This document shows positions 5,410-41,099 of a stretch of DNA of 51,363 nucleotides, one piece after another. Every line of letters begins with the position of its first letter. Position 1 is the stretch's first letter. The notes below the pieces were generated by a model, which saw nothing but the letters and a program-made list of their open reading frames with translations, was not told the DNA's origin and made no database searches. Origin of the DNA: Planctomycetota bacterium (GTDB lineage: Bacteria; Planctomycetota; Planctomycetia; Pirellulales; Pirellulaceae). A program made the position numbers and the translations under genes. The DNA lies in assembly GCA_029259935.1 (NCBI GenBank), contig JAJDEH010000300.1, positions 1 through 51,363 on the forward strand. Reading direction: 5' to 3'.

Positions 5410-5484
5410 TCTGGGACGAGTGTTTGACGACGGCGCTGTGCCGGCTGGGTTTGTTGGCGGCCTATTGTGTCGATGTATGGCAGT

Positions 5485-5505
5485 TGGTCAAATCTCGGTT
5501 GACCA
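5485..5505. promoter_or_regulatory. Dyad upstream of ABC transporter operon (possible operator)
   Basis: A perfect 7-base inverted repeat, TGGTCAA (5485-5491) and TTGACCA (5499-5505), is separated by 7 bases and ends 34 bases before the permease start codon. Spacing and symmetry are those expected of a dimeric repressor site such as LacI or GntR type. No regulator gene is adjacent, so the protein is unknown. Confidence 0.4.
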
Positions 5506-5539
5506 GAATACTGCCTAAGATCTTCAGAATCGCAACTCC

Positions 5540-7884: not shown

Positions 7885-7886
7885 TC

Positions 7887-10346: not shown

Positions 10347-10363
10347 GAGTTGGAGTTCAGGCT

Positions 10364-17711: not shown

Positions 17712-17724
17712 GGCAACGCGTTTA

Positions 17725-19692
17725 ATGCGACAGGACCAGTTCTTAAACGTAATCGATCGCGACGAGGCCCAGCGACGGTTTCATGCGGCCATCGCGCTCG
17801 ACCCGCTGGGCGCGGAACTGGTCGCCTTGGACACTGCCTGGGGACGAGTTCTGTCCGAGGACGTGATTGCTCAGGTCGATGTTCCGTCGTTCGACCGCTC
17901 GAACCTCGACGGCTTCGCCATTCAGGCCGCCGATTCTTTCGGAGCGAAGGAAGAAGATCCGCGCCAGTTGCGGTTACTGCCCGAAGTGATATCGACCGCG
18001 GTCGTGCCGCAAACCGAGATCGAACCGGGCACCGCGATGGCGATCGCCACGGGTGGCATGCTGCCGCGCGGCGCGGATGCCGTCGTCATGGTGGAGCACG
18101 CCGACGCGGACGGCAATCAGGTCTTCGTTCGCAAAGCCGTGACGCCGGGATTCGGCGTATCGTTCGCGGGAACGGACATCGCTCGCGGCGAAACCGTCCT
18201 CCGTCGCGGCGAATTGCTGACCAGCCGGGAAACGGGCGTGCTGGCCGCGATCGGGGTCGCGAAGGTTGCCGTGTGGCGCAGGCCGCGCGTGGCGATCCTA
18301 TCCACCGGCGACGAAATGATCGCGCCTGGCGAAGAAATGAAACCGGGGCTCGTCTACGATTCCAATGCCCGCATCATCGCCGACGCGGTGCGTGAACTGG
18401 GCGGAGAGCCGCTGTGCATGGGCATCGTTCAAGACGATACGGATCAACTGCGCCAGCGGGTGAATGAAGCGATCGCCAAGGCGGACGTTGTGCTGTTATC
18501 GGGCGGCACCAGCAAGGGGCATGGTGACCTGTGCTATCGAGTCGTTAGTGAATTGAAGAATCCGGGAATCGTTGCCCACGGCGTCGCCCTCAAGCCCGGC
18601 AAACCGATCTGCCTGGCCGTCAGCGACGGCAAACCGATCGTGATCCTGCCAGGATTTCCCACGTCAGCAATTTTCACGTTTCACGAATTCGTCTCGCCGG
18701 TTATTCGTCGCCTGGGCGGTCGCCCGGCGGAAAGCCGTTCGACAACGCAAGCGCGGATGGCCGTGAAGGTGAACTCGGAGATTGGCCGCACCGAGTACTT
18801 GTTGGTCGGCCTCGTCGAATCCGCCCAGCCATCGACGGATGCAAACAAGACATCCGCCGCTGTTCCGCTGGTCGCCTATCCGATGGGCAAGGGCTCTGGT
18901 AGTGTCACGACCTTTAGCCGCGCGGACGGTTTCGTTACGATCGATCGCAATGAAGAAATCGTCGACGCGGAGGCGGTCGTCAATATTCAGTTGTTGGGAC
19001 GCGACATTCGCGTCGCGGATCTCGTCGTGATCGGCAGCCACTGTGTCGGCTTGGACTACTTGTTGAGCCAGTTGCAAGAGCAAGGATTTCATACGAAGTT
19101 CTTGATGGTCGGATCGACCGCCGGACTGGACGCGGCCAGGCGCGGCGAGTGCGATGTGGCGGGCATCCACCTGATGGATCCGAAAACAGGCCGCTATAAC
19201 TCGCCATTTCTTGACGATCGACTGACGCTCTTGCCAGGCTATGGTCGCGTGCAGGGCGTGGTCTTTCGTGCCGGCGACAAGCGATTCGAGGGCTGCGGCG
19301 CGGAACAAGCCATCACCACGGTGAAGGACGACAAGAATTGCATCATGGTCAATCGCAATCAAGGCAGCGGCACGCGCATCTTGATCGACCAATTGCTAGA
19401 GGGAACCAAGCCCGCCGGCTATGCGGTTCAAGCCAGCAACCACAATGCCGTCGCCGCGGCCGTAGCGCAAGGACGAGCCGACTGGGGGATTGCCATCGGC
19501 AGTCTCGTCGCCAGTTCGCAATTGTATCGGCAGTCTGAACTAGGCTTTCTGCCACTGACCGACGAACAGTATGACTTCGTCGTTCCGCAAGCGCGCGAGC
19601 ATCGTCCCGCCGTTCAAGCTTTTGAAGCTTTGCTTCGCGAGACCGAGACTCGAAACAAGCTGGCGGCCATGGGATTTAAACTACCGAATTGA
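17725..19692 (+). CDS. MoeA-like protein fused to a periplasmic-binding-like domain
   Basis: A 655-aa protein starting at ATG 17725, 13 bases after the first moeA; upstream extension overlaps moeA and is rejected. Residues 1-~425 are MoeA-like (SFDRSNLDGFAIQAAD, GMLPRGADAVVMVEHAD, STGDEMIAPGEE, LLSGGTSKGHGDL, ILPGFPTSAIFTFHEF). Residues ~435-655 form a substrate-binding-protein-like domain (VVIGSHCVGLDYLLSQL, VNRNQGSGTRILIDQLL, ASNHNAVAAAVAQGRADWGIAIG), the COG1910-type domain known in MoeA fusions from archaea and bacteria. The binding domain may sense molybdate or tungstate or a cofactor form. A cytoplasmic location is expected since no signal peptide is seen. Confidence 0.88.
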   Translation: MRQDQFLNVIDRDEAQRRFHAAIALDPLGAELVALDTAWGRVLSEDVIAQVDVPSFDRSNLDGFAIQAADSFGAKEEDPRQLRLLPEVISTAVVPQTEIEPGTAMAIATGGMLPRGADAVVMVEHADADGNQVFVRKAVTPGFGVSFAGTDIARGETVLRRGELLTSRETGVLAAIGVAKVAVWRRPRVAILSTGDEMIAPGEEMKPGLVYDSNARIIADAVRELGGEPLCMGIVQDDTDQLRQRVNEAIAKADVVLLSGGTSKGHGDLCYRVVSELKNPGIVAHGVALKPGKPICLAVSDGKPIVILPGFPTSAIFTFHEFVSPVIRRLGGRPAESRSTTQARMAVKVNSEIGRTEYLLVGLVESAQPSTDANKTSAAVPLVAYPMGKGSGSVTTFSRADGFVTIDRNEEIVDAEAVVNIQLLGRDIRVADLVVIGSHCVGLDYLLSQLQEQGFHTKFLMVGSTAGLDAARRGECDVAGIHLMDPKTGRYNSPFLDDRLTLLPGYGRVQGVVFRAGDKRFEGCGAEQAITTVKDDKNCIMVNRNQGSGTRILIDQLLEGTKPAGYAVQASNHNAVAAAVAQGRADWGIAIGSLVASSQLYRQSELGFLPLTDEQYDFVVPQAREHRPAVQAFEALLRETETRNKLAAMGFKLPN

Positions 19693-29024: not shown

Positions 29025-29200
29025 GTTGAGTCGTGGCCTTTGGCGTTCCGTTCTTCTATGCAAGCATAGCCAAATTCACATCGACAGCCGCCGCCGCGTG
29101 GACTCCTAGGCGAACCGTCCCTATCCTTCAAGTGTCTGTTGATTGCGATCTTCCGAAGCGGGCGCTCACTCGAACGCCCCAAGAGACCAGCGAGGGATAC

Positions 29201-29605
29201 ATGCTCTCTAGTTCACGGCCCCATGATGATGAGTTTCTTAGTCGAGCGTTGCAGAAGATTGCTCAACGGGCCGGAATGTCCTCGGGAAGTATTCGAATTG
29301 CGCTTCACGATGGACAGGTGTGTCTTGTCGTCATTCAACCAAGACATCAGCTATCGAAGAACTGCGGCCTAGACACTTGGCCCGAACCGAACATTGAAAC
29401 AGAAACAATAAATCTGGATGGGCTCGGCGCATTTGTCCAGTCGCTTGTCGAAGAACCGATTCGAACCAAGATCGGACCGTTCGCGGCGGTTAAGGCAAGA
29501 ATCGAATCCGGGTCTGTTTCGCACTGGCGGATTTCCCGCCTTTACAGAAAACGGAAATGCAAACGCCGACGCCACGGCGTCGAAAATGGCAGCAGCAGCG
29601 CATGA
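29201..29605 (+). CDS. Hypothetical protein, 134 aa
   Basis: An open frame starting at ATG 29201 (MLSSSRPHDDEFLSRALQKI) after AGCGAGGG. The central part looks like a real soluble domain (SGSIRIALHDGQVCLVVIQP, INLDGLGAFVQSLVEEPI), while the tail is unusually basic (RLYRKRKCKRRRHG). The frame is open further upstream to 29033 but that part has no protein character. No family recognised. It may be a small accessory gene or a partly decayed one; a terminator follows at 29718. Confidence 0.4.
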   Translation: MLSSSRPHDDEFLSRALQKIAQRAGMSSGSIRIALHDGQVCLVVIQPRHQLSKNCGLDTWPEPNIETETINLDGLGAFVQSLVEEPIRTKIGPFAAVKARIESGSVSHWRISRLYRKRKCKRRRHGVENGSSSA

Positions 29606-29821: not shown

Positions 29822-30478
29822 ATGGCACAAGGGAGTCAATTTGAACTTCATTCCTTCCGTGGTGAAGACGACTGGTCGGACGGCTCGTCGAGCCTGCAGG
29901 CCGAGATCGACAGGTTGGATTGGAACGAACACGAGTTGCCGACAGCCAGCGTGTTGGTTGTCGATGAAGATGCGCCGGAAGCGGATGCCTTGTTCGTCGG
30001 AATCGCGGAAGACACTAAGTGTCCGGTCCGTGTCGCCGCCGATGAGCAACCGGTTGCCGAGTTCCGAACGGTGCAACGTCGGCTAGGTCCGGCGCTGGCG
30101 ATGTTCCCCTGTCACGATGGAGTTTTGGTGAACGGATTGCCCGCGCTCGCGTTGACGGTGTTAGCGCCGCGCGACGCGCTGGTACTCGCGCCGGGCTTGC
30201 AGACTTATGTCACGCAACGCATTCGTCCTTATGTCGGCAAGGCCACGGAGGAAATGATCGGAAAGAAGTGTCCTTTCTGCCGCATCCCGATTGACCGAGA
30301 CACACGAGTCGTCACTTGCCGTTGCGGCGTCGTGTACCACCTGGAGACGGACGAGAGCCATCCGGACGTCGACGAGTCGGATCGGCTGGCCTGCTTCAAC
30401 AAGGTACGCAAATGCCTGTCGTGCAGCCGCGAAGTGACGTTTGAAGAATCGCTGGTCTGGGGTCCGGCGGGACTCTGA
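29822..30478 (+). CDS. RING-finger-type zinc-binding protein (putative E3-like)
   Basis: A 218-aa protein; the ATG at 29822 is used since the terminator at 29718-29778 makes a start further upstream unlikely. Residues 150-201 match the prokaryotic RING pattern: Cys150, Cys153, Cys166, Cys168, His173, Cys191, Cys198, Cys201, including KCPFCRIPI, TCRCGVVYH and CLSC. The preceding ~95-140 region (HDGVLVNGLPALALTVLAPRDALVL) is beta-rich and resembles an FHA-like sandwich. Prokaryotic RING proteins of this sort are known from predicted Ub-like operons, where they are proposed E3 ligases. It is the first gene of the operon, followed by E1 and E2 genes. Ligase activity is inferred. Confidence 0.75.
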   Translation: MAQGSQFELHSFRGEDDWSDGSSSLQAEIDRLDWNEHELPTASVLVVDEDAPEADALFVGIAEDTKCPVRVAADEQPVAEFRTVQRRLGPALAMFPCHDGVLVNGLPALALTVLAPRDALVLAPGLQTYVTQRIRPYVGKATEEMIGKKCPFCRIPIDRDTRVVTCRCGVVYHLETDESHPDVDESDRLACFNKVRKCLSCSREVTFEESLVWGPAGL

Positions 30479-30522
30479 GATTAGACGTTTGAAATGGATT
30501 TGAAATTGAAACGCTGTTGAAC

Positions 30523-31815
30523 ATGAAGACTTTGGCACATCCGGAATCAGTTGCACCGACCGCCAGCGGTTGGCTGGAGCTGCGCGAGTCGAGCCGCGAT
30601 GCGGCGTCGGTGACCGAGGCGGAGATTGCGCTGGCGCGAACGGCGCTGAAAGGCCTGCCCGTGGGAGGCCGTCCGTTGTCGGACAGCCGAGTCTTCATGG
30701 CCGGGCTGGGAGCCGCCGGTGGCGTTGCCTATCGCCTGCTGGTGCAGTCGGGTGTTGGCGCGATCGACGCCGTCGATCCGGACAGCTATGGATCGGATTC
30801 ATTCCTGACACAGACTTCGACTTGGAAGGACGCGGGACAACCGAAAGCGATCGTACAACGTAATAACGCCGCCGATTTAAATCCGGCGGTGCGAATCAGA
30901 ACAGCAGTGGGGCCGGCCCAACATGTTCGCCTGCGAGATTTGAGACTAGCCGACCTGTTTCTGATTGCTGGCGACAACTTGGCAGTTGCCCTGTGGTGTG
31001 GAAGCCGGGCCGCCGGGCTCGGCAAACCGATGGTTCAAGCGGCCGTGCATGGCGAAACGGCCAGCGCGATTGTTCGCGGATATGATCTGCGAGACGGCGA
31101 GGGTGCTTGTCCCCGATGCGGGTTGAGCCAACAGGAGCTACAGCATCAATCCGTGCGGCATGGCTGCGATGTCGGTGCCACGGTACCGTTGGCCAAGGAG
31201 TCGACGCGGACGCAACCGACGATTTGCAATGTTGCCGGCGCGATGGCGGCCAGTGAGGCGATCAAATGGCTGACAGGCAACGAAGATCTGGCACTGCGTG
31301 GTGAAGAGGCGCTCGTTTCGACTTTGGCTTTTCAGTCTTGGCGGACGGCCTTGCGTCGCGACAGCCAATGTGCTCAGCCACACCGCAAATGGGAACTCGT
31401 TGACCTTGAAACGGAAGCCCACGAGACGTCGTTGCGAGACATTGTCGAACACGACGGACCGCGGCCTGACGAGATTCCACAAATTCGTTCGGAGTTGGAT
31501 TGGATCAGTTTCACATTTTGTTCGGCTTGCCAGCAACGGGCCGATGTGCGTCGTTTCGCCCGGTTGGACGCCGTGGTCGGACGTTGCGACTGTGGCGAGC
31601 CATTGAAGCCGGTTCCGCAAGGCGCTCATTCGATCGTGCCCCCGCAAGATCTGCGGGCGTGCTGGGAGAAGCCGCTTAGCGAAATCGGGATCACCGCCGG
31701 CGAAGCGGTCGGCCTGAGGCGAGATGAGACGTGGCACTACTTTTTCACGAATGATCAGAACTGGCGGAAGATCGAACCGACGGTCAGGAGAGAAACAAAT
31801 GTCGACGGCAAGTGA
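30523..31815 (+). CDS. E1-like ThiF/MoeB-family activating enzyme, first copy
   Basis: A 430-aa protein; TTG 30517 is an alternative start two codons upstream. The nucleotide-binding Rossmann motif is VFMAGLGAAGGVAYRLLVQSG with the acidic strand IDAVDPDSYGSDSF. Next come the CPRCG zinc pair, Cys in HGCDVGA and the late helix NVAGAMAASEAIKWLTG, as in ThiF/E1 adenylation domains. The C-terminal ~130 residues carry a zinc ribbon-like FCSACQ ... RCDCGEPL and are not part of plain ThiF. It should adenylate the C-terminal Gly of a Ub-like protein and pass it to the E2 whose gene overlaps its 3' end by 17 bases. Confidence 0.8.
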   Translation: MKTLAHPESVAPTASGWLELRESSRDAASVTEAEIALARTALKGLPVGGRPLSDSRVFMAGLGAAGGVAYRLLVQSGVGAIDAVDPDSYGSDSFLTQTSTWKDAGQPKAIVQRNNAADLNPAVRIRTAVGPAQHVRLRDLRLADLFLIAGDNLAVALWCGSRAAGLGKPMVQAAVHGETASAIVRGYDLRDGEGACPRCGLSQQELQHQSVRHGCDVGATVPLAKESTRTQPTICNVAGAMAASEAIKWLTGNEDLALRGEEALVSTLAFQSWRTALRRDSQCAQPHRKWELVDLETEAHETSLRDIVEHDGPRPDEIPQIRSELDWISFTFCSACQQRADVRRFARLDAVVGRCDCGEPLKPVPQGAHSIVPPQDLRACWEKPLSEIGITAGEAVGLRRDETWHYFFTNDQNWRKIEPTVRRETNVDGK

Positions 31816-32407
31816 ACCGAAGAAGTCGGATCGTGTCAAGAAACATGAAGAGCTTCGTGACGCGGCCCTCAAACAAAATGGCGGCGGCCGCAGCTTCTCG
31901 CAATGGAAAGCAGCCGCGGTTGATGAAGTCGTGGATTTGGCTAACCAAGCACCGCGCATGCAACTGTTGGAAATCAACCTGCACGGCGACTTGGACCTCG
32001 TCTATGGGATCCGGATGCCGGTGCCGCGGTGGCCGCACGGCGACGAGTTAGTGATTGCCGACCATGCGATTTTCCATCTCGTTTATCGAGACGAGTGGCG
32101 CGTCGACGCGCCGCCGGGATGGGCGCCGCTGGGCGTGTTCGCTCCCTTGGACATTTTTCATCCGAACTCGAAACCGGCGCTGCGTGGCGCGCTTTGTTTA
32201 GGAAACTTGGCGGCCGGTATTGCCCCGAAAGAGCTGATTTTGCTGGGTTACTACTTGGCATCGTTGCAAGATTACACCTTGGACGAATCCGATCCCGACG
32301 GAGTGCTGAACCCGGAAGCTTGTGAGTGGTATCGCTGCCATCCGCAATACTTGCCATTGACGCGGGCTGGACTATTTGACGACTGGAAACCAGAAGGAGT
32401 TGCTTAA
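31799..32407 (+). CDS. E2-like ubiquitin-conjugating-fold protein with catalytic Cys
   Basis: A 202-aa protein, ATG 31799 behind CAGGAGAG. Residues ~45-180 show the E2 hallmarks in order: the beta-sheet ending FHLVYRDEWRVDAPP, the IFHPN motif (121-123, with the Asn that stabilises the oxyanion), the active Cys133 in GALCLGN about ten residues later, PKELILLGYYLASLQDY, and the late NPEACEWYR helix. This is closer to the canonical eukaryote-like E2 than most bacterial relatives. It overlaps E1 upstream and the next gene by one base (TAATG), so all three are coupled. It should receive the Ub-like protein from E1 as a thioester. Confidence 0.85.
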   Translation: MSTASEPKKSDRVKKHEELRDAALKQNGGGRSFSQWKAAAVDEVVDLANQAPRMQLLEINLHGDLDLVYGIRMPVPRWPHGDELVIADHAIFHLVYRDEWRVDAPPGWAPLGVFAPLDIFHPNSKPALRGALCLGNLAAGIAPKELILLGYYLASLQDYTLDESDPDGVLNPEACEWYRCHPQYLPLTRAGLFDDWKPEGVA

Positions 32408-33282
32408 TGAGCGTCGCGATCCCCAAAGACCGCGCCAAGAACCGACCGCTGCTTGAAGCCGGCAACGGACTGCGATTCAAGACAGGCCGCGGCCGGAAAG
32501 GCGCTCCCGTGATTTGGGAGCACCAAGGTTGGCTGCGGCAAAAGCAACGGCACGGCTCGATTCAGAGCATGGCCGATTGCCTGGCGGCGCACGCCGATTG
32601 GGCCGGTCCGTCGAAACTTGTTTGGACGGATGAAGCCTGCTGGAAGATCACGGAAGTCTATCTCTCCCACGCCGACTTTGGCGACGAGTTGCTAGATGAC
32701 GAGTCCTCGCAAGAAAACAACTTGCTGATGTCCGAGTTGATCGAGGAGACGTTTAAGAGAAAGCCGAAAGACAAGGCCGCCGGATGGGAACCGCCCTCGA
32801 CTAGCGAGTTGGCCGGCTGGCTTGAAGCCACCGGACACACGGCCACGGTCGATGAAGACGAGAATTTGCGGCTGACGTTGAAGAGCCGCGGATGTGACGG
32901 CCAAGTTCGCGTCACTAGCGAATCGGGTCGGCTGCGGTTGGCAATGCGGCTGGGTTCATGGTCCAAGCTCGACCCCGCGGCGGAGGAGGCCATTTTGCAT
33001 CTGTCAAACGAAGCGAACGCTCGCGGCCGGATGTTTCGGATTGCCTGGCTGGCGGAAAAGGAACAACGAAAGTGCGAAGCACAAGTCGACTTAACCGGGT
33101 TGCCGACGGCGGGGCACGTCGAGCGGTTGTGGCCCGACGTGATTCGGACTTCCGTCGCCAGCTTGGAACTAGCTTTGCGTTGGCTGGGCCGCGAACTCGA
33201 AGTACTCGCGGACGGTAAGAATCTGGAATTGGCCCGCGAACTTTTGCAGACGGCCGACGGCCGACCGCGACAGCCCCGCTAA
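32407..33282 (+). CDS. Unknown protein of the Ub-like operon (C-terminal half YbjN/CesT-like)
   Basis: A 291-aa protein translationally coupled to the E2 gene by TAATG. The N-terminal third is basic (AKNRPLLEAGNGLRFKTGRG) and the middle acidic (DFGDELLDDESSQENN). The C-terminal ~140 residues alternate strands and helices (RVTSESGRLRLAMRLGSWSK, EEAILHLSNEANARGRMFRIA, WPDVIRTSVASLELALRWLG) in a way that resembles the YbjN or type-III-chaperone CesT fold; this is a weak, shape-based comparison. No catalytic motif is visible. An adaptor or chaperone for the conjugation enzymes would fit its place. Confidence 0.7.
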   Translation: MSVAIPKDRAKNRPLLEAGNGLRFKTGRGRKGAPVIWEHQGWLRQKQRHGSIQSMADCLAAHADWAGPSKLVWTDEACWKITEVYLSHADFGDELLDDESSQENNLLMSELIEETFKRKPKDKAAGWEPPSTSELAGWLEATGHTATVDEDENLRLTLKSRGCDGQVRVTSESGRLRLAMRLGSWSKLDPAAEEAILHLSNEANARGRMFRIAWLAEKEQRKCEAQVDLTGLPTAGHVERLWPDVIRTSVASLELALRWLGRELEVLADGKNLELARELLQTADGRPRQPR

Positions 33283-33298
33283 GTGGGGCAACTGATTG

Positions 33299-33324
33299 GC
33301 CGGCAACGTTGCCGGCGCGTTTTT
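33299..33324 (+). terminator. Short hairpin with T run before the first Ub-like gene
   Basis: An 18-base perfect palindrome GCCGGCAACGTTGCCGGC (33299-33316) is followed three bases later by TTTTT (33320-33324). A second hairpin GCCCC (33273-33277) / GGGGC (33285-33289) overlaps the preceding stop codon. Together they may partly terminate or process the transcript upstream of the Ub-like gene. Confidence 0.5.
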
Positions 33325-33351
33325 CCAAAACCTTTTCAAAGAGGAGTGCTT

Positions 33352-33630
33352 ATGGTTACCGCGACAACCAGTTCGGTCGTCGATCCGCTGCAGTTTGTGG
33401 CGACCGACGTTACCGGATTGCGGCGTCTCGAGTTCGACGCTGTCGACGGCCACCGATCAGCCGGCGAGGTGGCGCTTAGCGTTGCTTCGGCGATGGATCT
33501 TCCGACCAATGTGCCCTGGTCTCTGCGCGATCAGCAACGAGCCCGCATGTTGGAACAGGAAGCTCCGCTGGGGGGCCAAATCGACACCGGCTCCGAACTC
33601 GTCGTGATCCCGCGAAGCCACTTGGGCTAG
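33352..33630 (+). CDS. Small Ub-like (beta-grasp) protein ending in Gly, first copy
   Basis: A 92-aa protein with ATG 33352 behind a strong AAAGAGGAG. Predicted order of two strands (LQFVATDVTG, RRLEFDAV), a helix (SAGEVALSVASAMDL) and further strands (ARMLEQEAPLG, GSELVVIP) fits a ubiquitin/YukD-type fold. The chain ends SRSHLG-type with Gly92 as the last residue, so it would be ready for E1 without trimming. It is placed between E1/E2 and a JAB protease gene and is flanked by hairpins that may set its level apart from the enzymes. Fold assignment rests on pattern and context. Confidence 0.7.
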   Translation: MVTATTSSVVDPLQFVATDVTGLRRLEFDAVDGHRSAGEVALSVASAMDLPTNVPWSLRDQQRARMLEQEAPLGGQIDTGSELVVIPRSHLG

Positions 33631-33642
33631 CGTGATTAAAAA

Positions 33643-33694
33643 CACTTGGCGGGTCCTTGGCCATTCGGACCAGGCCCGCTAAGTGCGATTTTTC
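33643..33694 (+). terminator. Hairpin with T run after the first Ub-like gene
   Basis: CACTTGGCGGG (33643-33653) pairs with CCCGCTAAGTG (33675-33685) with one mismatch, and inner GGTCC/GGACC extends it; GCGATTTTT follows. A further GCGCGG/CCGCGC hairpin is at 33724-33738. The structure would end a short transcript of the Ub-like gene, leaving read-through to the JAB gene. Confidence 0.6.
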
Positions 33695-33785
33695 GTATTT
33701 CAAAAAAGGTGCTGAACAGCGCGGCGCGGATGCCGCGCGCCGACAGAATGCAATTCCGCCTTAGGTCGCTCTTGGAGTCAAACTG

Positions 33786-34913
33786 GTGAAAAATTTCCTC
33801 ATCGAAGACGGCAAACAATTGGTACTCGACATCGTCGACAAGGTCAGCGCCGAAACGGACGGCAAGGAAACGACGCTGACGGCCCAATTGGTTTCCCGCG
33901 TGCCGCTGACCTATTCGGACTTTCAACTGGCACGCGACGAAACCTGGTGGCTGGGAGTCCGCAACGGGTCGTTGGAGCCGGATTTGGAATCGCACGAGAT
34001 GCGCGTCATTCCGGGCGGCGACGCCGGCGACGGGATGGTGGATGGCTACACGATTCGGCTGAGCCGCGACGGTTCGAGCTACAGCCGCAAGTTTTCGATC
34101 CGCAGCATGAGCAATGTGGCCCAACGCGAAATCACGCGACTGTTCAAGGACGACGATACCGAGATCAGTTTGGATGACAACTACTCCTACTACCTCAGTT
34201 CCATCGCGGCGGACGAACAAGAGGCGGACCCCGCGCCGGAAATGCGCGTCAAGTCGTGCCGCGAGCCGTTGCTGTTTGATGAAGGGCGGCTGGCCGATTA
34301 CATGAGAGTCAGCGAAACGCTGGTGGGAGTTTCCGAGCCTCCGCCGAAAACCAAGACACCTCCCATGCAGATCTTTGTCACGCAAGACGTATGGGACGAA
34401 TCCAAAGAGCACGCGCATCGAGGCGGCGAGCAAGAATCGGCGGCCTTGTTCAGCGGCCGGCTGTTTCGCGACACAGACTCGCCGGAAGTATTTGTACGGA
34501 TCGATGCCTGCCTGGAAGCCGCACACGCGGTCGAAGAGAAGCTTTCGGTGACCTTCACCGGCGACACTTGGGCTCATGCCCGCGAGTTGCTGGAGATGCG
34601 CAGAAAGCGGCTCGGTAGGCCGCAAGAGATTATCGTTGGGTCGGTCCACCGGCATCCGTTCATGCCGTCGGCCGACGCCAACGGCCAGCGAAAATGTGAG
34701 ATCTGCGAAGTCGCCGAATACTGCACCCGGTCGACGGCGGTGCCCAGCGGAGATGACTTTGAGTGGCATCGTTCGGTGTTCGCCGGACAGCCATATACCA
34801 CATTGCTGATTTGGGGCTACAACGCCCGCGAGGAAGAGGACTTTCGTTTGTATGGTCTGCACAACGCAACCTTCAGTAACCGCACGCTTCGTTTGCTGAG
34901 GCAGGAACCCTAG
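33786..34913 (+). CDS. JAB/JAMM metalloprotease-like protein, first copy
   Basis: A 375-aa protein starting at GTG 33786. The N-terminal ~190 residues are a beta-rich domain without a recognised family. The C-terminal part is a JAB domain: likely catalytic Glu217 in GGEQESAALFSG, zinc ligands His288 and His290 in VGSVHRHPFMPS, and Ser321/Asp324 in VPSGDD. Between HxHP and SxxD lies an insertion with Cys304, Cys307 and Cys313 (KCEICEVAEYC) that could hold its own zinc or iron. Such enzymes remove or mature Ub-like proteins by cutting after Gly. It precedes the AAA gene by 8 bases. Confidence 0.8.
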   Translation: MKNFLIEDGKQLVLDIVDKVSAETDGKETTLTAQLVSRVPLTYSDFQLARDETWWLGVRNGSLEPDLESHEMRVIPGGDAGDGMVDGYTIRLSRDGSSYSRKFSIRSMSNVAQREITRLFKDDDTEISLDDNYSYYLSSIAADEQEADPAPEMRVKSCREPLLFDEGRLADYMRVSETLVGVSEPPPKTKTPPMQIFVTQDVWDESKEHAHRGGEQESAALFSGRLFRDTDSPEVFVRIDACLEAAHAVEEKLSVTFTGDTWAHARELLEMRRKRLGRPQEIIVGSVHRHPFMPSADANGQRKCEICEVAEYCTRSTAVPSGDDFEWHRSVFAGQPYTTLLIWGYNAREEEDFRLYGLHNATFSNRTLRLLRQEP

Positions 34914-34921
34914 GAGAAATC

Positions 34922-36697
34922 ATGCCCCCAACACCCAACGATTACAGCAAGATGGTAGCCCTGGTGCTGAACGACAAAAAGCCCGTCGAGCAGCGTGCCC
35001 AGATGTTGATGGGCGCGTTCCACAGCGGCGACCCTGTCACCATGCAAGCCTTCGCGAAAGACCTGCTCGGCAAGATGGTCAATGCCAAGCCCGCCGCCGA
35101 ACTCGAGGAAGCAAAAAAGACTTACGAGCAGGCGATTGAGGAACTGAGAAACGGCGGCGTGCGGCCGGCCACCTTCATTGGCGTGGCCAACGTCGACATG
35201 CCTGGGCCCAAACCGCGCGCTCACGTCGTCACGCCCGATGGCCAGGAACGTTTTCCTTTTTTCTACGAAGACGTCTCGAGTGAAGACATGGACGCGGGCC
35301 AAACAGTCTACCTGGATCCGCAAGGTGCCATGATTCTGGGCAAGAGCTCGCTTGTTCAGAAAGTCGGCCCCGAAGCCAAGTTCGTGCGGCGTCTTCCCGA
35401 CACGGATCAAGTCGAAGTCGGCATCCGCGAAGAGACCATCACCCTGTACGCTTCCCGGGAATTGCTGGAAACGCACGAGGAGGGTGAACTGACGCGCGGA
35501 GACCAGGTGCTGATTTGCCCGGCACGTCAATTTGCGTTCCGCAAGATTCCCACGAATCAAGATCGGCGGCACCGCTTTGTCGATAGCAGCAAGTTGCCCA
35601 ACATCTTGCCCGGACGTGATATCGGCCGCCCGCACCCTTGCTTGGGCTGGTTGGTTCGCCGCACGCGAATTCTGATGTTCCGCGACGACCTGCGCAAAAA
35701 GTACGACCAGCGGCCACGCGTTTCGCTGCTGATGACCGGACCTTCGGGCACCGGAAAAACGCTGACTATCAAGTCGTATCTGACCCTGTTTGGCAAGATG
35801 CTGGCCGAGCGGACGGGGCGGGACGATCTGGAGAGCCGCGTTATTCGCGTAAAAATGTCCGAACAGCTTTCCGAGTGGCTGGGCCGTTCGGATAAAAATT
35901 TCGAGGCCCTGTTCGACGACATCCAGTACTTGGCCAGCCAGAAGGTGCAAACGGCCAGCGGTGAATGGATTCACTTACCGATTGTCGGCATCTTGGAAGA
36001 GGTCGACGGCATCGCCAGGCGGCGGTCGAATGGCGAACAAGACGGGTCCGGTGGCGCGATGGATCGCATCATGAGCACGCTGCTGCAGCGGCTCGACGAT
36101 CCGATGGACGAAATGTCCAAGCTTCCGCTGGTACTAATTTCAACAACCAACCGTCCGGCGATGGTCGATGTCGCCATGCATCGCCGGCTGGGTGCCAAGG
36201 TCGCCAGGTTCACCCGATTGGGCCGCGACGGGCTGGCGGCGGTGCTGTCGAAGAAGATCAAGACCAGCTACCCCTTTGAGAAAAGTAACGGCACTTCGAC
36301 CGAGGTGCTGCGAACGCAACTGATCGACCAAGTGGTTGGCAACTTCTTTAGTCCTGTCAACGACGAGCCGCAATTGGAATTGACGCTACGAGACGGAGTG
36401 AAACTGAAAAAGTACGCCCGCGACTTTTTGACCGGAGCGCTAATCGAACAGTCGATTTCCGACACGATCGACCAACTGATCTTCTACGCCGAGCAATCGG
36501 GCCGCGAAGACGTTGGGCTGGACGCGGCGACGGTGATTTCCGCTCTGCGGCGGCAAATCGAAACTCTGGCTGAAAACGTCAGTGCGTTCAACGCCGCCGA
36601 CTATGTGGACATCCCCGAGCACACGCAAGTAGCGAACGTCCGCCGCTTTCAGTCGGCCAACGGACATTTGAATGAACTTGTTGTCAACGAAGCATAA
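34922..36697 (+). CDS. AAA+ ATPase resembling proteasomal ATPases (ARC/Mpa/PAN-like)
   Basis: A 591-aa protein with ATG 34922 behind TAGGAGAAAT. Residues ~57-78 look coiled-coil (AELEEAKKTYEQAIEELR). Residues ~85-210 are beta-rich and resemble the OB domains of Mpa/ARC. The AAA module has Walker A GPSGTGKT (273-280), a Walker B at 355-360 reading VGILEE where the first acidic residue is Glu rather than Asp, sensor 1 STTNRP (407-412) and Arg residues in AMHRRLG (418-424). Proteasomal ATPases unfold tagged proteins for a 20S core; no core subunit is in the window and no C-terminal HbYX motif is seen (it ends VVNEA). Confidence 0.8.
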   Translation: MPPTPNDYSKMVALVLNDKKPVEQRAQMLMGAFHSGDPVTMQAFAKDLLGKMVNAKPAAELEEAKKTYEQAIEELRNGGVRPATFIGVANVDMPGPKPRAHVVTPDGQERFPFFYEDVSSEDMDAGQTVYLDPQGAMILGKSSLVQKVGPEAKFVRRLPDTDQVEVGIREETITLYASRELLETHEEGELTRGDQVLICPARQFAFRKIPTNQDRRHRFVDSSKLPNILPGRDIGRPHPCLGWLVRRTRILMFRDDLRKKYDQRPRVSLLMTGPSGTGKTLTIKSYLTLFGKMLAERTGRDDLESRVIRVKMSEQLSEWLGRSDKNFEALFDDIQYLASQKVQTASGEWIHLPIVGILEEVDGIARRRSNGEQDGSGGAMDRIMSTLLQRLDDPMDEMSKLPLVLISTTNRPAMVDVAMHRRLGAKVARFTRLGRDGLAAVLSKKIKTSYPFEKSNGTSTEVLRTQLIDQVVGNFFSPVNDEPQLELTLRDGVKLKKYARDFLTGALIEQSISDTIDQLIFYAEQSGREDVGLDAATVISALRRQIETLAENVSAFNAADYVDIPEHTQVANVRRFQSANGHLNELVVNEA

Positions 36698-36714
36698 GGG
36701 AGGCAATGCCTCGC

Positions 36715-37896
36715 ATGAAAATCGACACATTAACAAAGCAGCTCAACGGCCAACTTGGCCGGCTGCTGAAGGTGAACAGCGTCACCTGTTCGCAACCCAA
36801 AGAACGCATGCTGCAACTCGACGAAGTGCCCGTCGGCGCGGCGTTCAATCATGGGTCGACGAATGTACTCCTGTGCGAGGACGCCAAGAGCGGGCGATGG
36901 GACGTCTATGTGGACGAGGATCTCGTCTACACGGGGGACAATCCGAAACGGCAAAAAGTGTTTCAGGGAATTCGGAGCCGAGGTTGGCGGCTGCTGTTTG
37001 TCGACACCAAGCTGCCTCCAGACATCAACGTCGTGATTGTGTGGGTGCTGCAGCAGTTGGAAAGTAAATTGCGGCGACTCGCGCCGGAGGCCTTGTCCTG
37101 CAGTTTCGAGGCGTTGGCCGGACAGTTTGATGACGGCCTCGGCGCAGCGCTTGATAAACGGACCTGTCGTCTGCTTCATCCCCATGAGCTAGTGCCAAGC
37201 GGATTGGAACCGACGCTTTCTCAGGTCGACCTGAATGAGCGGGCGGCGGAAACCGTCCTGCGCGGCGTCGCGCCGAACGGCCCGCTGTTAATGGGTCCCG
37301 CCGGGGTCGGCAAGACGACAGGCGCGCGGCTTGCGGCGAGTGAACTTTGCCGGCGGGAAATTGTCCAAACAGTCATCGAAGTCCGCGGTTCGGCGATCTG
37401 TGCCGGAGCCGTTTCTCAGCCGGAACGTGATGAACGCCTACGTACGATTCTCGAAACCTATGTGGACGAACCCACGACTCTGCTGATTGTCGAGCAACTG
37501 GATTTGGCCCTGATGCGTTCGGCGGTGGCGGCATCCTTGGTCGCGGAAAGATTGGACCAGGGATTGAAGATGATCGCCGTTGCCAGCCCGCAGTACAACC
37601 CTCGGGCGCTGCGGCTGGGCGGCCAATTGCAGCGGCGCGTCGAACCGTGCCACTTGGCACCGCCGGACCATGGAGAACTGACCGACATACTCAGGCAGTG
37701 GATGCGCCGAAACCGGCTGGCCGCCGACCTGGAAATGTCGGTCGACGTGTTGCCGCTGGTCGCGCGGCTGTCGTCGCGCCGGGCTGGAGCCAACCCGGCG
37801 GCCGCGGTGGGCCTGTTGGCGGCGGTCATGAATCGGGCCGTGTTTTCCGGCGGGCGGTGCGTCGGGCCCGACGACGTTTTTCACTTAGTCAATTGA
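36715..37896 (+). CDS. Second AAA/P-loop ATPase of the operon
   Basis: A protein of 393 aa from ATG 36715; ATG 36706 would add three residues, but GGGAGG at 36698-36703 is well spaced only for the later start. Residues 1-~130 form a domain with VFQGIRSRGWRLLFVDTKLP that is not recognised. The P-loop is MGPAGVGKTTGARLAASEL. The Walker B position reads TTLLIVEQLDLAL with Glu but no preceding Asp, and a possible sensor 1 is IAVASPQYNP. Downstream helices resemble the lid of AAA+ proteins of the MoxR/GvpN or DnaC type. It may assist or regulate the proteasomal-like ATPase encoded just upstream. Confidence 0.75.
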   Translation: MKIDTLTKQLNGQLGRLLKVNSVTCSQPKERMLQLDEVPVGAAFNHGSTNVLLCEDAKSGRWDVYVDEDLVYTGDNPKRQKVFQGIRSRGWRLLFVDTKLPPDINVVIVWVLQQLESKLRRLAPEALSCSFEALAGQFDDGLGAALDKRTCRLLHPHELVPSGLEPTLSQVDLNERAAETVLRGVAPNGPLLMGPAGVGKTTGARLAASELCRREIVQTVIEVRGSAICAGAVSQPERDERLRTILETYVDEPTTLLIVEQLDLALMRSAVAASLVAERLDQGLKMIAVASPQYNPRALRLGGQLQRRVEPCHLAPPDHGELTDILRQWMRRNRLAADLEMSVDVLPLVARLSSRRAGANPAAAVGLLAAVMNRAVFSGGRCVGPDDVFHLVN

Positions 37897-37933
37897 CTTC
37901 GGTATTTTGATTCAACTTCCAAGGAGACTGTAA

Positions 37934-38236
37934 ATGAGCAACGAACGACAAAGAGACGAAGCACTGGGCACGGGCCCGGATGCGTTCAGTGATGAATTTG
38001 GAGGAAACACGGCGGTTGCCGAAGGCAGCGTGGAAGTGGTCCACGGCGTCTACGCGCACCGCTTTCCGCTCGGCGGAATGACCGTTGGCCAAGCGCGCAC
38101 CGAGTTGGCGGATCGAATGAATTTGGATCCGGACTCGATCGCCGTGGTCGATGGAAATGAGGTGGGAGACGACACCGTGCTGGGAGAAGGACAAGTGTTG
38201 AACTTCGTCAAGCACGCGGGTGAAAAAGGTGCGTAG
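37934..38236 (+). CDS. Ub-like (ThiS/MoaD/PRTRC-C-like) beta-grasp protein, second copy
   Basis: A 100-aa protein with a strong ribosome-binding site (AAGGAGACTGTAA before ATG). After a ~30-residue acidic, Gly-containing N-terminal tail, the core reads VEVVHGVYAHRFPLGG, TVGQARTELADRMNL, SIAVVDGNEVGDDTVLGEG, VLNFVKHAG, which is the strand-strand-helix-strand order of ThiS-like proteins and of the Ub-like protein C of PRTRC cassettes. The chain ends HAGEKGA, so exposing Gly96 or Gly99 would need trimming, possibly by a JAB protease of the operon. It begins the second module of the system. Confidence 0.75.
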   Translation: MSNERQRDEALGTGPDAFSDEFGGNTAVAEGSVEVVHGVYAHRFPLGGMTVGQARTELADRMNLDPDSIAVVDGNEVGDDTVLGEGQVLNFVKHAGEKGA

Positions 38237-38419
38237 TGTGCGACAACCTCCCCCAACCCCTCCTTGTAAAGAAGGGGAGCCTGGTTCTCCCCCTTGCCAA
38301 GGGGGAGTTAGAGGGGGTCGGAATATCGAATATCGAACACGGAATGTCGAAAGAAGAAAGCAGAAGAACCTTCCCTAACCCCTCCTGGTAAAGGAGGGGA
38401 AGTTCCGCGGAATTTAAAC
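38237..38419. repeat. Cluster of dispersed palindromic repeats
   Basis: The gap holds three related palindromes: AACCCCTCCTTG...AAGGGGAG near 38256-38280, CTCCCCCTTGCCAAGGGGGAG (first 20 bases from 38287; ends 38307) followed by TTAGAGGGGGT, and a third CCCCTCCTGGTAAAGGAGGGG-type unit near 38378-38401. Between them lies an AT-rich spacer with ATATCGAATATCGAA. The CTCCCCCTT...GTTAGAGGGGGT form recurs at 48234-48266. These look like extragenic repeats, not a CRISPR array, since unit spacing is irregular. Confidence 0.75.
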
Positions 38420-38617
38420 ATGGCCGAAAAACTACCCATTGAAAATTCGAAAGAGCGCTCGCTCAAATCGCCGCGCTCGATTACGCAGCCGCAAGTTCCC
38501 GACGGCGTGAAGTTCATGGCATGGCAAGAGCCTGTCGTCTGTCTCGTGGAACTCTCGCCGCAAGTGCGAAGAGTTCGCTGGATCGAGGACGATTCGTACA
38601 ACAATTTTCAGCGTTAG
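38420..38617 (+). CDS. Small paralogue of the next gene (truncated tandem copy)
   Basis: A 65-aa frame whose start context (TAAACATGGCCGA) and N terminus MAEKLPIE copy those of the gene at 38640 (MADKLSIE). The core VPDGVKFMAWQEPVVCLVEL and the VRRVRWIEDDS end match IPDGVKFVQWQKPFLCVVHQ and VRKVRWIAADS of that protein, residues ~47-82. The copy then stops, lacking the remaining ~200 residues. It may be a functional mini-domain, or the remains of a duplication. It begins right after a repeat cluster. Confidence 0.65.
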   Translation: MAEKLPIENSKERSLKSPRSITQPQVPDGVKFMAWQEPVVCLVELSPQVRRVRWIEDDSYNNFQR

Positions 38618-38639
38618 GTCAAAATCACGGAGTCTAAAC

Positions 38640-39500
38640 ATGGCCGACAAACTTTCGATTGAAAAGGCAAAGATCGTGCTTGAGACCGACGAAGGTCGCA
38701 AGATGAAAATGCCGGAAGAGCGATTGGTTGAAATGTTTCGCTCGGAAATGGAACTGCCCATCAACGGAGTGGCCATTCCCGACGGCGTGAAGTTCGTGCA
38801 ATGGCAAAAGCCGTTCCTGTGCGTTGTGCATCAGTTGCCGCCGCTGGTGCGGAAGGTCCGCTGGATCGCCGCTGATTCGCCGGTTCCGTTCGGCGACGGG
38901 GCAAAATTCAAATCGCGGCGTTTGAGCATGCCCTATGCAGTTACGTTTGCCATTTATTGCGCACGTGGCGACCACTTTCAATTGGTCGGCAACAACGAAC
39001 TCTACTTCCGCAACGAGCCGCTACGGTCGAAGGCCGACCAGTTGGGATTTCCCGCTTTGTTAAACGTGTCGCGCATTGTTAGCGAAGAGCGCGAGCGGTC
39101 TTGGATTTGTACTCAATATTTGGGAGACGTGTCGAAAGTCGACTGGGGCGGCCAGCTTGCCCATCTGCTAAATCACACCTGGAATGGATCGTTCAACTTG
39201 TCGTCGGAACATCATGAAGGTGCCAGTTGGTATGGCGAGTCGCAGGACGTTCACGCCGACTTGCATCCGATCGAACGGTGGGAAAAGGCCTCCAAGAAAA
39301 ACGACGCCTTCGCGCTGGGCATCGCCTGGAAACCCGCACCGCTGAACGTGGGCCAGATCATGGAAGCCTTGCTCCAGGAATCGGGGGAATGCGTGGAGGG
39401 ACTGCCAGGCCATCTGCAACAAGCGAGGCCCCGTTCGACACCAGACATTCCCACGCGTTTGTTGAATTTCGTTCAGGCAACGGATGAAGTGGCGTTTTGA
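38640..39500 (+). CDS. Unknown protein of the second module (PRTRC-B / Prok-E2-like position)
   Basis: A 286-aa protein. N-terminal ~80 residues include the IPDGVKFVQWQKPFLCVVHQ unit duplicated upstream. The middle, MPYAVTFAIYCARGDHFQLV then NNELYFRNEPLRSKADQLGF, and the WICTQYLGDVSKVDWGGQLA segment, resemble in layout the PRTRC protein B family, which has been related to the E2 fold; this is a weak comparison, and a catalytic Cys (WICTQ, Cys161 region) is only possible. Its place between a Ub-like protein and a JAB plus ThiF pair fits. Otherwise unknown. Confidence 0.65.
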   Translation: MADKLSIEKAKIVLETDEGRKMKMPEERLVEMFRSEMELPINGVAIPDGVKFVQWQKPFLCVVHQLPPLVRKVRWIAADSPVPFGDGAKFKSRRLSMPYAVTFAIYCARGDHFQLVGNNELYFRNEPLRSKADQLGFPALLNVSRIVSEERERSWICTQYLGDVSKVDWGGQLAHLLNHTWNGSFNLSSEHHEGASWYGESQDVHADLHPIERWEKASKKNDAFALGIAWKPAPLNVGQIMEALLQESGECVEGLPGHLQQARPRSTPDIPTRLLNFVQATDEVAF

Positions 39501-39535
39501 CGTTGTCGCCATGGTTCAAGCACTAGGAGACTGAG

Positions 39536-40315
39536 GTGAAGCAAGTTCCAATTTACCTGAAGACCAGCGAGGATATGCCACGCCCCAAGGACGAGATGTT
39601 CTATTGGATGACCTCCAATGGACTGTTCATGGGACGCAATCACCCGTTCTTCTCCAGCGACGTGCCCGCGCCCCGCGCGCCGCGTTACCTGGCGGAACAT
39701 CGGTCGGCCTGTCAGATTCGCTATCCCAAGCTGGGGGTCGCGGCGCTGGAGTATATCGTCGGTTTCTTTGACCGTGTCTATCAAGATCACGGTTCCGAAT
39801 CGATCGTGCTGCTGTTTTGGAATCAGAGCCGCCAGCGCTACAAGCTGTGGGTGCCCGAGCAAGAGGCCACGGTGTGGGAATCACGGTCGGGTGTGCGTTC
39901 GGCGCTGGACGTAACCTACGAGTTGCCGATTCCGATGCCTCGCGATCACTTGCTGATTGCCGACATTCATTGCCATTGCGACTTTGGCGCGTACACCTCA
40001 TTCACGGACGAACACGACGAAAAATACCGCGATGGTGTGCATGCCGTGGTGGGCCACATCGAGCGCGAGGCACCCGACTTTCACGTGGAAGTCTCCGTCG
40101 ACGGGACTCGTTTCCGCATGCAGTTCGACCAACTGTTTCGCGGCTACCGTCAGCGCCGAACCGAAATTCCCGAGAAATGGCTGAAGCAAGTCAAAGTCAA
40201 GGTGAATCGCTCCCGCGGCTTTTCCTGGAGTGACTCGGCGGGAAGTAACGACACGTGGGGCACCGGCGGCTCGAACAGCGGTGGCTCGAACGGCGGCGGC
40301 TGGTACGGTGCCTAG
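39536..40315 (+). CDS. JAB/JAMM metalloprotease-like protein, second copy (PRTRC-A-like)
   Basis: A 259-aa protein; GTG 39536 follows TAGGAGACTGAG. The JAMM signature is exact: ADIHCHCDFGAYTSFTDEHD gives His145, His147, Ser155 and Asp158 (HxH-x7-SxxD), as in PRTRC protein A where the stretch reads HxH...FSxxD. The upstream half (LGVAALEYIVGFFDRVYQ, IVLLFWNQSRQRYKLWVPEQ) supplies the first JAB strands and helix. The last ~30 residues are Gly/Ser rich (GTGGSNSGGSNGGGWYGA) and probably disordered. It could trim the second Ub-like protein, whose tail extends beyond Gly. Confidence 0.85.
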   Translation: MKQVPIYLKTSEDMPRPKDEMFYWMTSNGLFMGRNHPFFSSDVPAPRAPRYLAEHRSACQIRYPKLGVAALEYIVGFFDRVYQDHGSESIVLLFWNQSRQRYKLWVPEQEATVWESRSGVRSALDVTYELPIPMPRDHLLIADIHCHCDFGAYTSFTDEHDEKYRDGVHAVVGHIEREAPDFHVEVSVDGTRFRMQFDQLFRGYRQRRTEIPEKWLKQVKVKVNRSRGFSWSDSAGSNDTWGTGGSNSGGSNGGGWYGA

Positions 40316-40331
40316 GTCAGAGGCGGTGAAC

Positions 40332-41099
40332 ATGAGAGCAAAAGAAATGATCAAAGACCAACAAGCGACTGAAGGGCTCAAATGTCAAATCGAGGATGGC
40401 GCGCGATTCGTCGTGGTGGGCCTGGGCGGCATTGGTACGGCACTGGTCCATCCGCTGGCGATGTTTCTGCACAGCATGGGCGGTTCGTATCGGCTGGTGC
40501 TGGTGGATGGCGACAAATACGAACCGGAAAATGCCCAACGGCAAATGTTCCGCAACCTGGGAAACAAGGCGGACGTGAAAGCCAAGGAGGTTTTGGACCT
40601 GCTGGGGCCAACCAACCTGACGGTCGTTTCCATCCCCGAGTTTCTTCAACCCGAAAATATTTCGAAATTGCTGAAACCGGGCGACTATTCTTTTGTCTGC
40701 GTCGACAACCACCCGACTCGAAAACTGGTCTCGCAGCGCTGGCAGCAATTGTCCGATGCCACGCTGATCAGCGGCGGCAACGAAGGCGTCAATCCGCCGA
40801 AGGAATTGGGAACCTACGGAAACGTGCAAGTGGCCCTTCGCCGCGGCGGGGAAGACCACACCGTCCCCATCACGCGCTATCACCCGGAAATCACGGCGAC
40901 CAAGGAAAAATTACCTCATGAACTGAGTTGCGGCGAATTGGTAAAGTCGACGCCGCAAATTCTGTTCACCAACATGGCCGTCGCCAGCGCCATGCTCAAC
41001 GCATTCTTCGCGGTGGTCTGCGACAGGCTGGACTATCAAGAGGTGAAACTGGATATCCTGGAAGCCCGCATGCTGCCCCAGTTTCCGATCAAGCCGTAG
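40332..41099 (+). CDS. E1-like ThiF-family protein, second copy (PRTRC-ThiF-like)
   Basis: A 255-aa protein from ATG 40332; a longer frame upstream overlaps the JAB gene. The Rossmann motif is FVVVGLGGIGTALVHPLAMF with LVLVDGDKYEPENAQRQ, the acidic and Arg residues placing ATP as in ThiF/MoeB. Near the end LSCGELVKSTPQILFTNMAV supplies the conserved SC...Q...N block of PRTRC ThiF proteins, its Cys being a candidate thioester or catalytic residue. It is last in the operon. It probably activates the second Ub-like protein. No zinc ribbon is present, unlike the first E1. Confidence 0.85.
   Translation: MRAKEMIKDQQATEGLKCQIEDGARFVVVGLGGIGTALVHPLAMFLHSMGGSYRLVLVDGDKYEPENAQRQMFRNLGNKADVKAKEVLDLLGPTNLTVVSIPEFLQPENISKLLKPGDYSFVCVDNHPTRKLVSQRWQQLSDATLISGGNEGVNPPKELGTYGNVQVALRRGGEDHTVPITRYHPEITATKEKLPHELSCGELVKSTPQILFTNMAVASAMLNAFFAVVCDRLDYQEVKLDILEARMLPQFPIKP

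Follow-up and report, generated by a model that had tools for sequence, protein, structure and literature searches.

A conserved, predicted ubiquitin-like conjugation core with an Mpa-like ATPase in a planctomycete operon, and a second module whose slot holds Pup_ligase-family genes in sister operons

We analyzed a run of co-directional genes on the forward strand of a 51,363-nucleotide stretch of DNA from a Planctomycetota bacterium (contig JAJDEH010000300.1; the whole stretch is referred to below as the window), which an earlier reading of the letters, here called the original prediction, had described as a complete ubiquitin-like conjugation system in one operon, at 29822-41099 (Table 1). 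The first seven genes of the operon, in the order RING-E1-E2-YbjN-Ubl1-JAB1-AAA1 (Ubl, ubiquitin-like protein), form a conserved core, and the last four (a predicted Ubl2, a 286-aa protein, a PRTRC_A-like JAB protein and a second ThiF E1), which in the window follow a second ATPase, AAA2, form an exchangeable second module. Six sister operons fill the slot behind AAA1 with two genes of the Pup_ligase family. We observed directly the parts, their conserved residues, the order of the genes and both ways in which the slot is filled. The reading that we favor, with modest confidence, is that a ubiquitin-like cascade feeds an Mpa/ARC-like ATPase and that the second, exchangeable module supplies another tag to the same motor. 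We advance more tentatively, and with some doubt, the sharper proposal that the core is locked to an Mpa-like unfoldase and that the second arm is swapped wholesale between Dop-Pup-PafA and Ubl2-E1b-JAB2, giving one motor for two chemically unrelated tags and no 20S proteasome.

Conservation of the core was apparent from the neighborhoods of the E2 gene. Of 17 loci from 17 genomes (a set that leaves out the E2 matches L032 and L033), 13 had three or more other core genes beside the E2, L029 had two on a stretch of 2.4 kb and three had none. The core recurs in metagenome-assembled genomes (MAGs) of Planctomycetota, Acidobacteria and Verrucomicrobiota, in the last without a visible JAB gene; the genomes with the E2 and an assigned phylum (L001-L005) were two Planctomycetota, two Acidobacteria and one Verrucomicrobiota MAG. 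The E2 is rare, being found in at least 8 of 392 genomes in the phylum of genome G004, at least 6 of 296 in its order and at least 3 of 199 in the phylum of G003; these counts include the genomes on which the samples were centered, such as G004 and G003, and are lower bounds, as only the best first-look candidates were scored per genome (eight for the E2 and six for the gene of the 286-aa protein). The claim of a complete conjugation system with an unfoldase is thus well supported for its parts and their conserved order. Among these parts, the two E1-like ThiF proteins, the E2 with HPN and Cys, the two JAB proteases and the two AAA ATPases, including an unfoldase, were borne out, whereas the RING-type protein held up as a protein with conserved zinc ligands of less certain class, and only the first of the two ubiquitin-like proteins gained a modeled fold. 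The further claim that the operon is one pathway was supported only in part, the operon comprising two modules.

The first core protein has C150, C153, C166, H173, C191, C198 and C201 invariant in all 32 rows of its alignment (23 of 84 database matches and nine loci, with one duplicate row), and C168 in at least 90% of them. Its score against Pfam Prok-RING_1 was below the cut-off (E 3.8e-4), as was that of its relative in L022 (E 3.7e-6), and the matches of its profile in PDB were a mixture of PHD and RING domains. Based on this pattern we designate it a probable binuclear treble-clef-type protein of the RING-or-PHD class and a predicted E3. An FHA-like character of its N-terminal part ('VNG...RDE') had been considered and was dropped, with no FHA match in Pfam or in the PDB list; the PDB row covering that part was EssC (5fwh, E 0.14).

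In E1a, the residues G63, G65 and G68 (GxGxxG), D87, K110, a CxxC motif, C217, C285 and H289 were invariant in 13 of 13 sequences, and the C-terminal part is Cys-rich. C217 corresponds in position to the reactive Cys of ThiF and Uba4. The ThiF domain scored above the curated cut-off in both E1a and E1b. For the E2, H122 and C134 were invariant in 44 of 44 rows, and among the 18 rows from loci the catalytic Cys was present in 17 and HPN in 16. Comparisons of this protein with known structures were less direct: its profile aligned HPN..C with Ubc9 weakly (E 0.7), the single sequence gave nothing useful against PDB sequences and a Foldseek search with the model returned no significant PDB match, but a second look at the model with VIA-align listed E2s. 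Gene 3 is accordingly presented as a predicted E2 of UBC fold on the strength of the VIA-align result, the motif and the gene context. Three variant relatives were noted: one in L025 (2873-3421) has Ser for the catalytic Cys and is possibly inactive, and those in L020 (4178-5155) and L001 (2693-3346) are without the HPN His and keep the Cys.

The AlphaFold2 model of Ubl1 had a pLDDT of 91 and gave 337 PDB matches in Foldseek at E<=0.001, the best of them being the Caldiarchaeum ubiquitin; the Ubl1 profile against PDB sequences retrieved weak beta-grasp rows only (E 0.75 and up). The C-terminal Gly was invariant in 14 of 14 sequences, in six of which it is followed by one to seven residues, as in a precursor, and in the window it is the last residue. 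Ubl1 therefore combines a beta-grasp fold, as modeled, with the C-terminal Gly of a modifier. The preceding gene encodes a YbjN-like protein, a relative of which in L004 reached 25.2 bits against Pfam YbjN (cut-off 22). In JAB1 the JAMM residues E217, H288, H290, S321 and D324 were invariant in 8 of 8 sequences, as were C304, C307 and C313, which are inserted between HxH and SxxD and are perhaps a second zinc site. Neither Pfam JAB families for the window protein nor PDB sequences for the JAB1 profile gave a match; the relative in L024 matched Prok-JAB below the cut-off (E 6.5e-5). In L001, JAB1 (4769-6417) and AAA1 (6421-8227) are each split over two frames, by frameshifts or assembly errors.

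The best PDB match of AAA1 was the proteasomal ATPase Mpa (5kwa, E 1.4e-18), with ARC next, and its Walker A motif, E360 and R421/R422 were invariant in 8 of 8 sequences. The OB domains of proteasomal ATPases were found above the cut-off in L024 and L022, below it in L021 and the window, and not in L003. The second ATPase, AAA2, is present also in L004 and was not seen in L003 or L021; L042 has an AAA2-like gene (10157-11341), so AAA2 is not confined to operons of the window type.

The second module, Ubl2-286-aa-JAB2-E1b, lies behind AAA1 in those loci of the window type that extend far enough, namely the window, L003, L004 and L021, with AAA2 in between in the window and in L004; in L001 Ubl2 is present and the sequence then ends. 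Ubl2 is a predicted modifier: neither the window protein nor its relatives had a family match above the cut-off, a Gly near the end is conserved in five of five copies, with 0 to 36 residues after it, and the motif AGE[KR]G occurs in four of the five. The 286-aa protein had no Pfam match in the window or in three relatives, and C157 and H179 were invariant in all 28 rows (24 database matches and four loci). The suggestion that it is a second E2 was unsupported (probability 0.3 in an hhalign comparison with the E2 alignment), and a search with PF14460 (Prok-E2_D) was uninformative, giving no signal with controls that were likewise silent. JAB2 has H145, H147, S155 and D158 (HxH and SxxD) invariant in 4 of 4 sequences, with the upstream Glu of the motif not placed, and all four E1b sequences share C157 and C234.

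In the six sister loci (L022, L023, L024, L040, L041 and L042, here type P, as opposed to type B for operons like that of the window) the two Pup_ligase-family genes flank a small open reading frame (ORF) in every case. This ORF has 62-73 codons and ends in RQx[GS]G[QE], an ending found once per locus on the operon strand and not at all in 2.17 Mb of base-shuffled sequence. In L042 the AAA2-like gene also lies here, between the small ORF and the second Pup_ligase-family gene. The first gene of the pair in L024 is closest to depupylase (E 5e-66), and the second scored 1e-39 to depupylase versus 1e-32 to PafA. The second gene begins with RLFGxETEY in four of the six, with a variant in L022 and without it in L041, a start that we take to be PafA-like; assignment of this gene as PafA-like was nevertheless dropped, Dop being its better match in L024 and L042. 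In the window operon, PF03136 (Pup ligase) matched none of the 12 intact genes. The two types split in the AAA1 tree with 100/100 support, the type-B side including L020, whose second arm lies off the core contig, and the type-P loci were grouped in the E1a tree with 96/94. Because six sisters have Dop/PafA-family genes around a Pup-like ORF in the same slot, it is likely that the second module is a functional stand-in for pupylation.

For the favored reading, a shared motor with two alternative tagging arms, we infer the reactions, the sharing of AAA1 and the fate of targets as follows. JAB1 would trim the tails of Ubl1 precursors, after which E1a would adenylate the Ubl1 Gly and hand the modifier to Cys134 of the E2, and the zinc protein would assist its transfer onto lysines of target proteins. 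AAA1 would unfold the tagged proteins, and JAB1 would remove and recycle Ubl1. In the window, Ubl2, JAB2 and E1b would provide this ATPase with a further tag, as would the Pup-like protein and the Dop/PafA-family pair in the sister operons.

Several observations weigh against this scheme. Three loci on short stretches (L019, L025 and L031) show the E2 alone, and in L005, where the contig breaks off within AAA1, no JAB1 stands between Ubl1 and that AAA1 fragment. Within the core, the E2s of L001 and L020 are without the HPN His and that of L025 has Ser for the Cys, the PDB profile matches of the zinc protein do not separate RING from PHD, and VIA-align ranks Ubl1 as highly against monooxygenase small subunits and talin as against ubiquitin-like folds; because such non-conjugating beta-grasp chains score equally, the fold of Ubl1 alone is no proof of conjugation. 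With respect to the slot exchange, the Pfam Pup model matched none of the six small ORFs at E<=1, for which reason they are named Pup-like, their position, length and ending resembling Pup. Depupylases are a better match than PafA for both Pup_ligase-family genes of L024 and for the second of L042, so we only infer the presence of a ligase in the pair. In the type-B genomes G004 and G311 a separate contig carries a Pup_ligase gene, so the exchange concerns operon content and not strict exclusion from the genome, and the E1a tree places the long-branched type-B locus L021 on the type-P side. Finally, no HbYX end was found on 11 AAA1 C-termini, and none of the genomes of 15 relatives (MAGs, which may be incomplete) had a 20S proteasome, defined as more than one PF00227 protein.

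The last two results bear on whether the system is one of genuine degradation, in which AAA1 delivers tagged proteins to HslV, to another peptidase or to a 20S-like chamber that escaped recognition. The affinity of AAA1 to proteasomal Mpa/ARC speaks for this, as do the OB domain, above the cut-off in two of four relatives tested, and the PF00227 proteins that occur singly in 8 of the 15 relatives and that, on inspection, all resemble HslV. However, the other seven had no PF00227 protein, and the JAB proteins are the sole peptidase genes in the operon. Given the lack of a 20S partner in these relatives and of HbYX on AAA1, degradation is not implied and simple protein turnover is not established; we regard delivery to a peptidase as rather unlikely, although it is the most credible of the alternatives.

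It is also conceivable that two independent Ubl systems merely share an operon, the last four genes, as a PRTRC-like module, having another role such as peptide or cofactor chemistry, and AAA1 serving only one of the two. JAB2 resembles PRTRC_A (E 3e-7, at 30.2 of 101.8 bits, below the NCBIfam cut-off) and its relative in L021 matches DUF2016 above the cut-off, both being families of separate cassettes. One such cassette, row 6d of a survey by Iyer and colleagues from 2006, is presumably the PRTRC system. In the accessible portion of that survey (PMC1779556), row 6d, the fourth operon type, resembles the second module in having a Ubl, a JAB with an extra N-terminal domain, an E1, and a protein whose conserved Cys has a His downstream of it. 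In contrast to a PRTRC-type cassette, the PRTRC_A score in the window is far under the cut-off, other PRTRC parts were not seen and the module is joined to a RING/E1/E2/Mpa core. Occurrence across genomes speaks against two independent systems. The gene of the 286-aa protein was found in at least 4 of the 392 genomes, and all four are among the eight with the core E2 (hypergeometric 7e-8; 2e-4 when the two genomes that contributed query rows, G004 and G311, are left out). In G063 and G150, however, this gene and the E2 are on different contigs, those of the E2 being short. In the wider protein database the 286-aa protein had 478 matches (the best 120 of which were listed) and the E2 56, but the former was searched with an alignment and the latter with a single sequence, so these totals are no measure of independence. 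With the module behind the ATPases in all four loci named above, we consider two unconnected systems unlikely.

Parts of this operon have precedents. Burroughs, Iyer and Aravind reportedly predicted prokaryotic RING/E1/E2/JAB/Ubl operons in 2011, planctomycetes included. A later article that cites their work places related operons in Actinobacteria, Planctomycetes and Acidobacteria (PMC4197634, in the text available), and these have the same kinds of parts as the window core. As far as these accessible texts go, the window-type core was already foreseen by the 2011 prediction and the Pup/Ubl exchange is the new element: titles and abstract beginnings from searches pairing pupylation with E1/E2/JAB, RING and planctomycete terms contained no such exchange or hybrid operon, most subscription papers being outside the scope of these searches. 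The operon of the archaeon Caldiarchaeum subterraneum similarly encodes ubiquitin, E1, E2, a small RING and Rpn11/JAMM (PMC5654768, PMC6043591), and its ubiquitin is the one that best matched the Ubl1 model; it differs in that neither an Mpa-like ATPase nor a second tagging arm is mentioned in the accessible sections of those papers, and in that the zinc protein of the window is larger than the small RING and C4HC3-like. Compared with pupylation (Pup-Dop-PafA-Mpa), the likeness lies in AAA1 and in the gene content of the six sisters, and the difference in the absence of a Pup ligase from the window operon and of a 20S proteasome from the 15 relatives. Iyer and colleagues (2008; PMC2588565) described, in the portions available, Pup and PafA in planctomycetes and the G[EQ] ending as a Pup signature, and treated Ub-like and Pup tagging as convergent alternatives; JAB, E1-like and YukD have 0 occurrences in the main text of that paper.

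The coordinates of all genes are given in Table 1. The original prediction of thirteen co-directional genes was right as to the co-directional run, but 12 genes are intact and the thirteenth is a truncated copy that duplicates the beginning of the gene following it. This probable remnant had been a candidate Ubl, which was rejected on finding its origin; it has no Pfam match, and no counterpart was found in L003, L004 or L021. The many start-stop overlaps that had been described did not hold, true overlaps being limited to genes 2/3 (17 nt) and genes 3/4 (1 nt), and E1b may actually start near 40332 instead of 40230. Between Ubl2 and the remnant (38237-38419) are G+C-rich palindromic stretches, two 9-mers of which each recur once in the window (at 2208 and 48235), which is about the chance expectation. 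Promoter and terminator scans gave results at chance level only.

Table 1. Genes of the operon and the basis of their designations
Feature	Position	Strand	Basis
Predicted E3 (core gene 1), binuclear zinc protein, RING/PHD-like	29822..30478	+	Cys/His pattern; Prok-RING_1 below cut-off
E1a, ThiF-family adenylating enzyme (core gene 2)	30517..31815	+	Pfam ThiF E 2.6e-24
Predicted E2 (UBC fold), HPN and Cys134 (core gene 3)	31799..32407	+	
YbjN-like protein (core gene 4)	32407..33282	+	Pfam YbjN 25.6 bits, cut-off 22
Ubl1, beta-grasp modifier (modeled), C-terminal Gly (core gene 5)	33346..33630	+	AlphaFold2 model, Foldseek
JAB1, JAMM metalloprotease, 3-Cys insert (core gene 6)	33786..34913	+	Conserved residues
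AAA1, Mpa/ARC-like ring ATPase (core gene 7)	34922..36697	+	Best PDB match Mpa (5kwa)
AAA2, second AAA-type ATPase	36706..37896	+	Pfam AAA 25.6 bits, cut-off 21.2
Ubl2, predicted small modifier (second module)	37934..38236	+	Conserved Gly near end
Truncated copy of next gene's start, 65 codons, probably a remnant	38420..38617	+	
286-aa protein, C157 and H179 (second module)	38640..39500	+	Conserved residues
JAB2, PRTRC_A-like JAMM protein (second module)	39536..40315	+	PRTRC_A E 3e-7, below cut-off
E1b, ThiF-family enzyme (second module)	40230..41099	+	Pfam ThiF E 1e-15

Ten flanking products were compared with Pfam, and these were housekeeping-like, members of planctomycete families or unassigned, including DUF1501, PSCyt1/PSCyt2 and PSD1, which we take to be families typical of planctomycetes. 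Immediately upstream of the operon on the same strand is an ORF of 190 aa (29033-29605) with no family above the cut-off. Farther upstream, a single ORF of 756 aa (17422-19692) encodes MoeA fused to a periplasmic-binding-like domain.

These surroundings do not suggest anti-phage defence along the lines of Bil, Bub or CBASS, where conjugation of a Ubl to phage parts would block infection. Such a function would fit the rare and sporadic occurrence of the operon across three phyla, and known E1-E2-protease systems act in defence, according to the accessible part of PMC12687455. Like the window operon, Bil/Bub systems have a Ubl, E1, E2 and protease in a single operon (PMC12687455, PMC11354881), but, as far as those texts describe them, the window differs in its two E1s, two Ubls, RING-like protein and ATPases. 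In addition, the E1 of BilABCD has two adenylation domains and its E2, BilB, a CEHH motif (PMC11354881, available text), where E1a has one ThiF stretch and the E2 of the window has HPN-Cys. When 10 of the 13 products were compared with PADLOC (AAA2, Ubl2 and the remnant being left out), E1-E2/BilD models matched both E1s, the BilD model itself E1b alone and partially (E 1.9e-6), and IetA/TRIP13 models matched AAA1. These matches are confined to generic models, and at E<=0.1 there was none for the zinc protein, the E2, the YbjN-like protein, Ubl1, JAB1, the 286-aa protein or JAB2. Both the ATPase, with its likeness to Mpa, and the Dop/PafA-family genes are suggestive of proteostasis. Defence, one of the purposes raised in the original prediction, thus found no positive support, and we judge it improbable.

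Tag exchange would become directly testable in bacteria by means of operons that combine the parts of a ubiquitin-like cascade with two Dop/PafA-family genes and a Pup-like ORF around one proteasomal-type ATPase, and of their sisters with a second Ubl set in that place. The operons would also offer compact E1-E2-RING-JAB-unfoldase sets for reconstitution and inform the question of how ubiquitin became associated with proteasomal ATPases.

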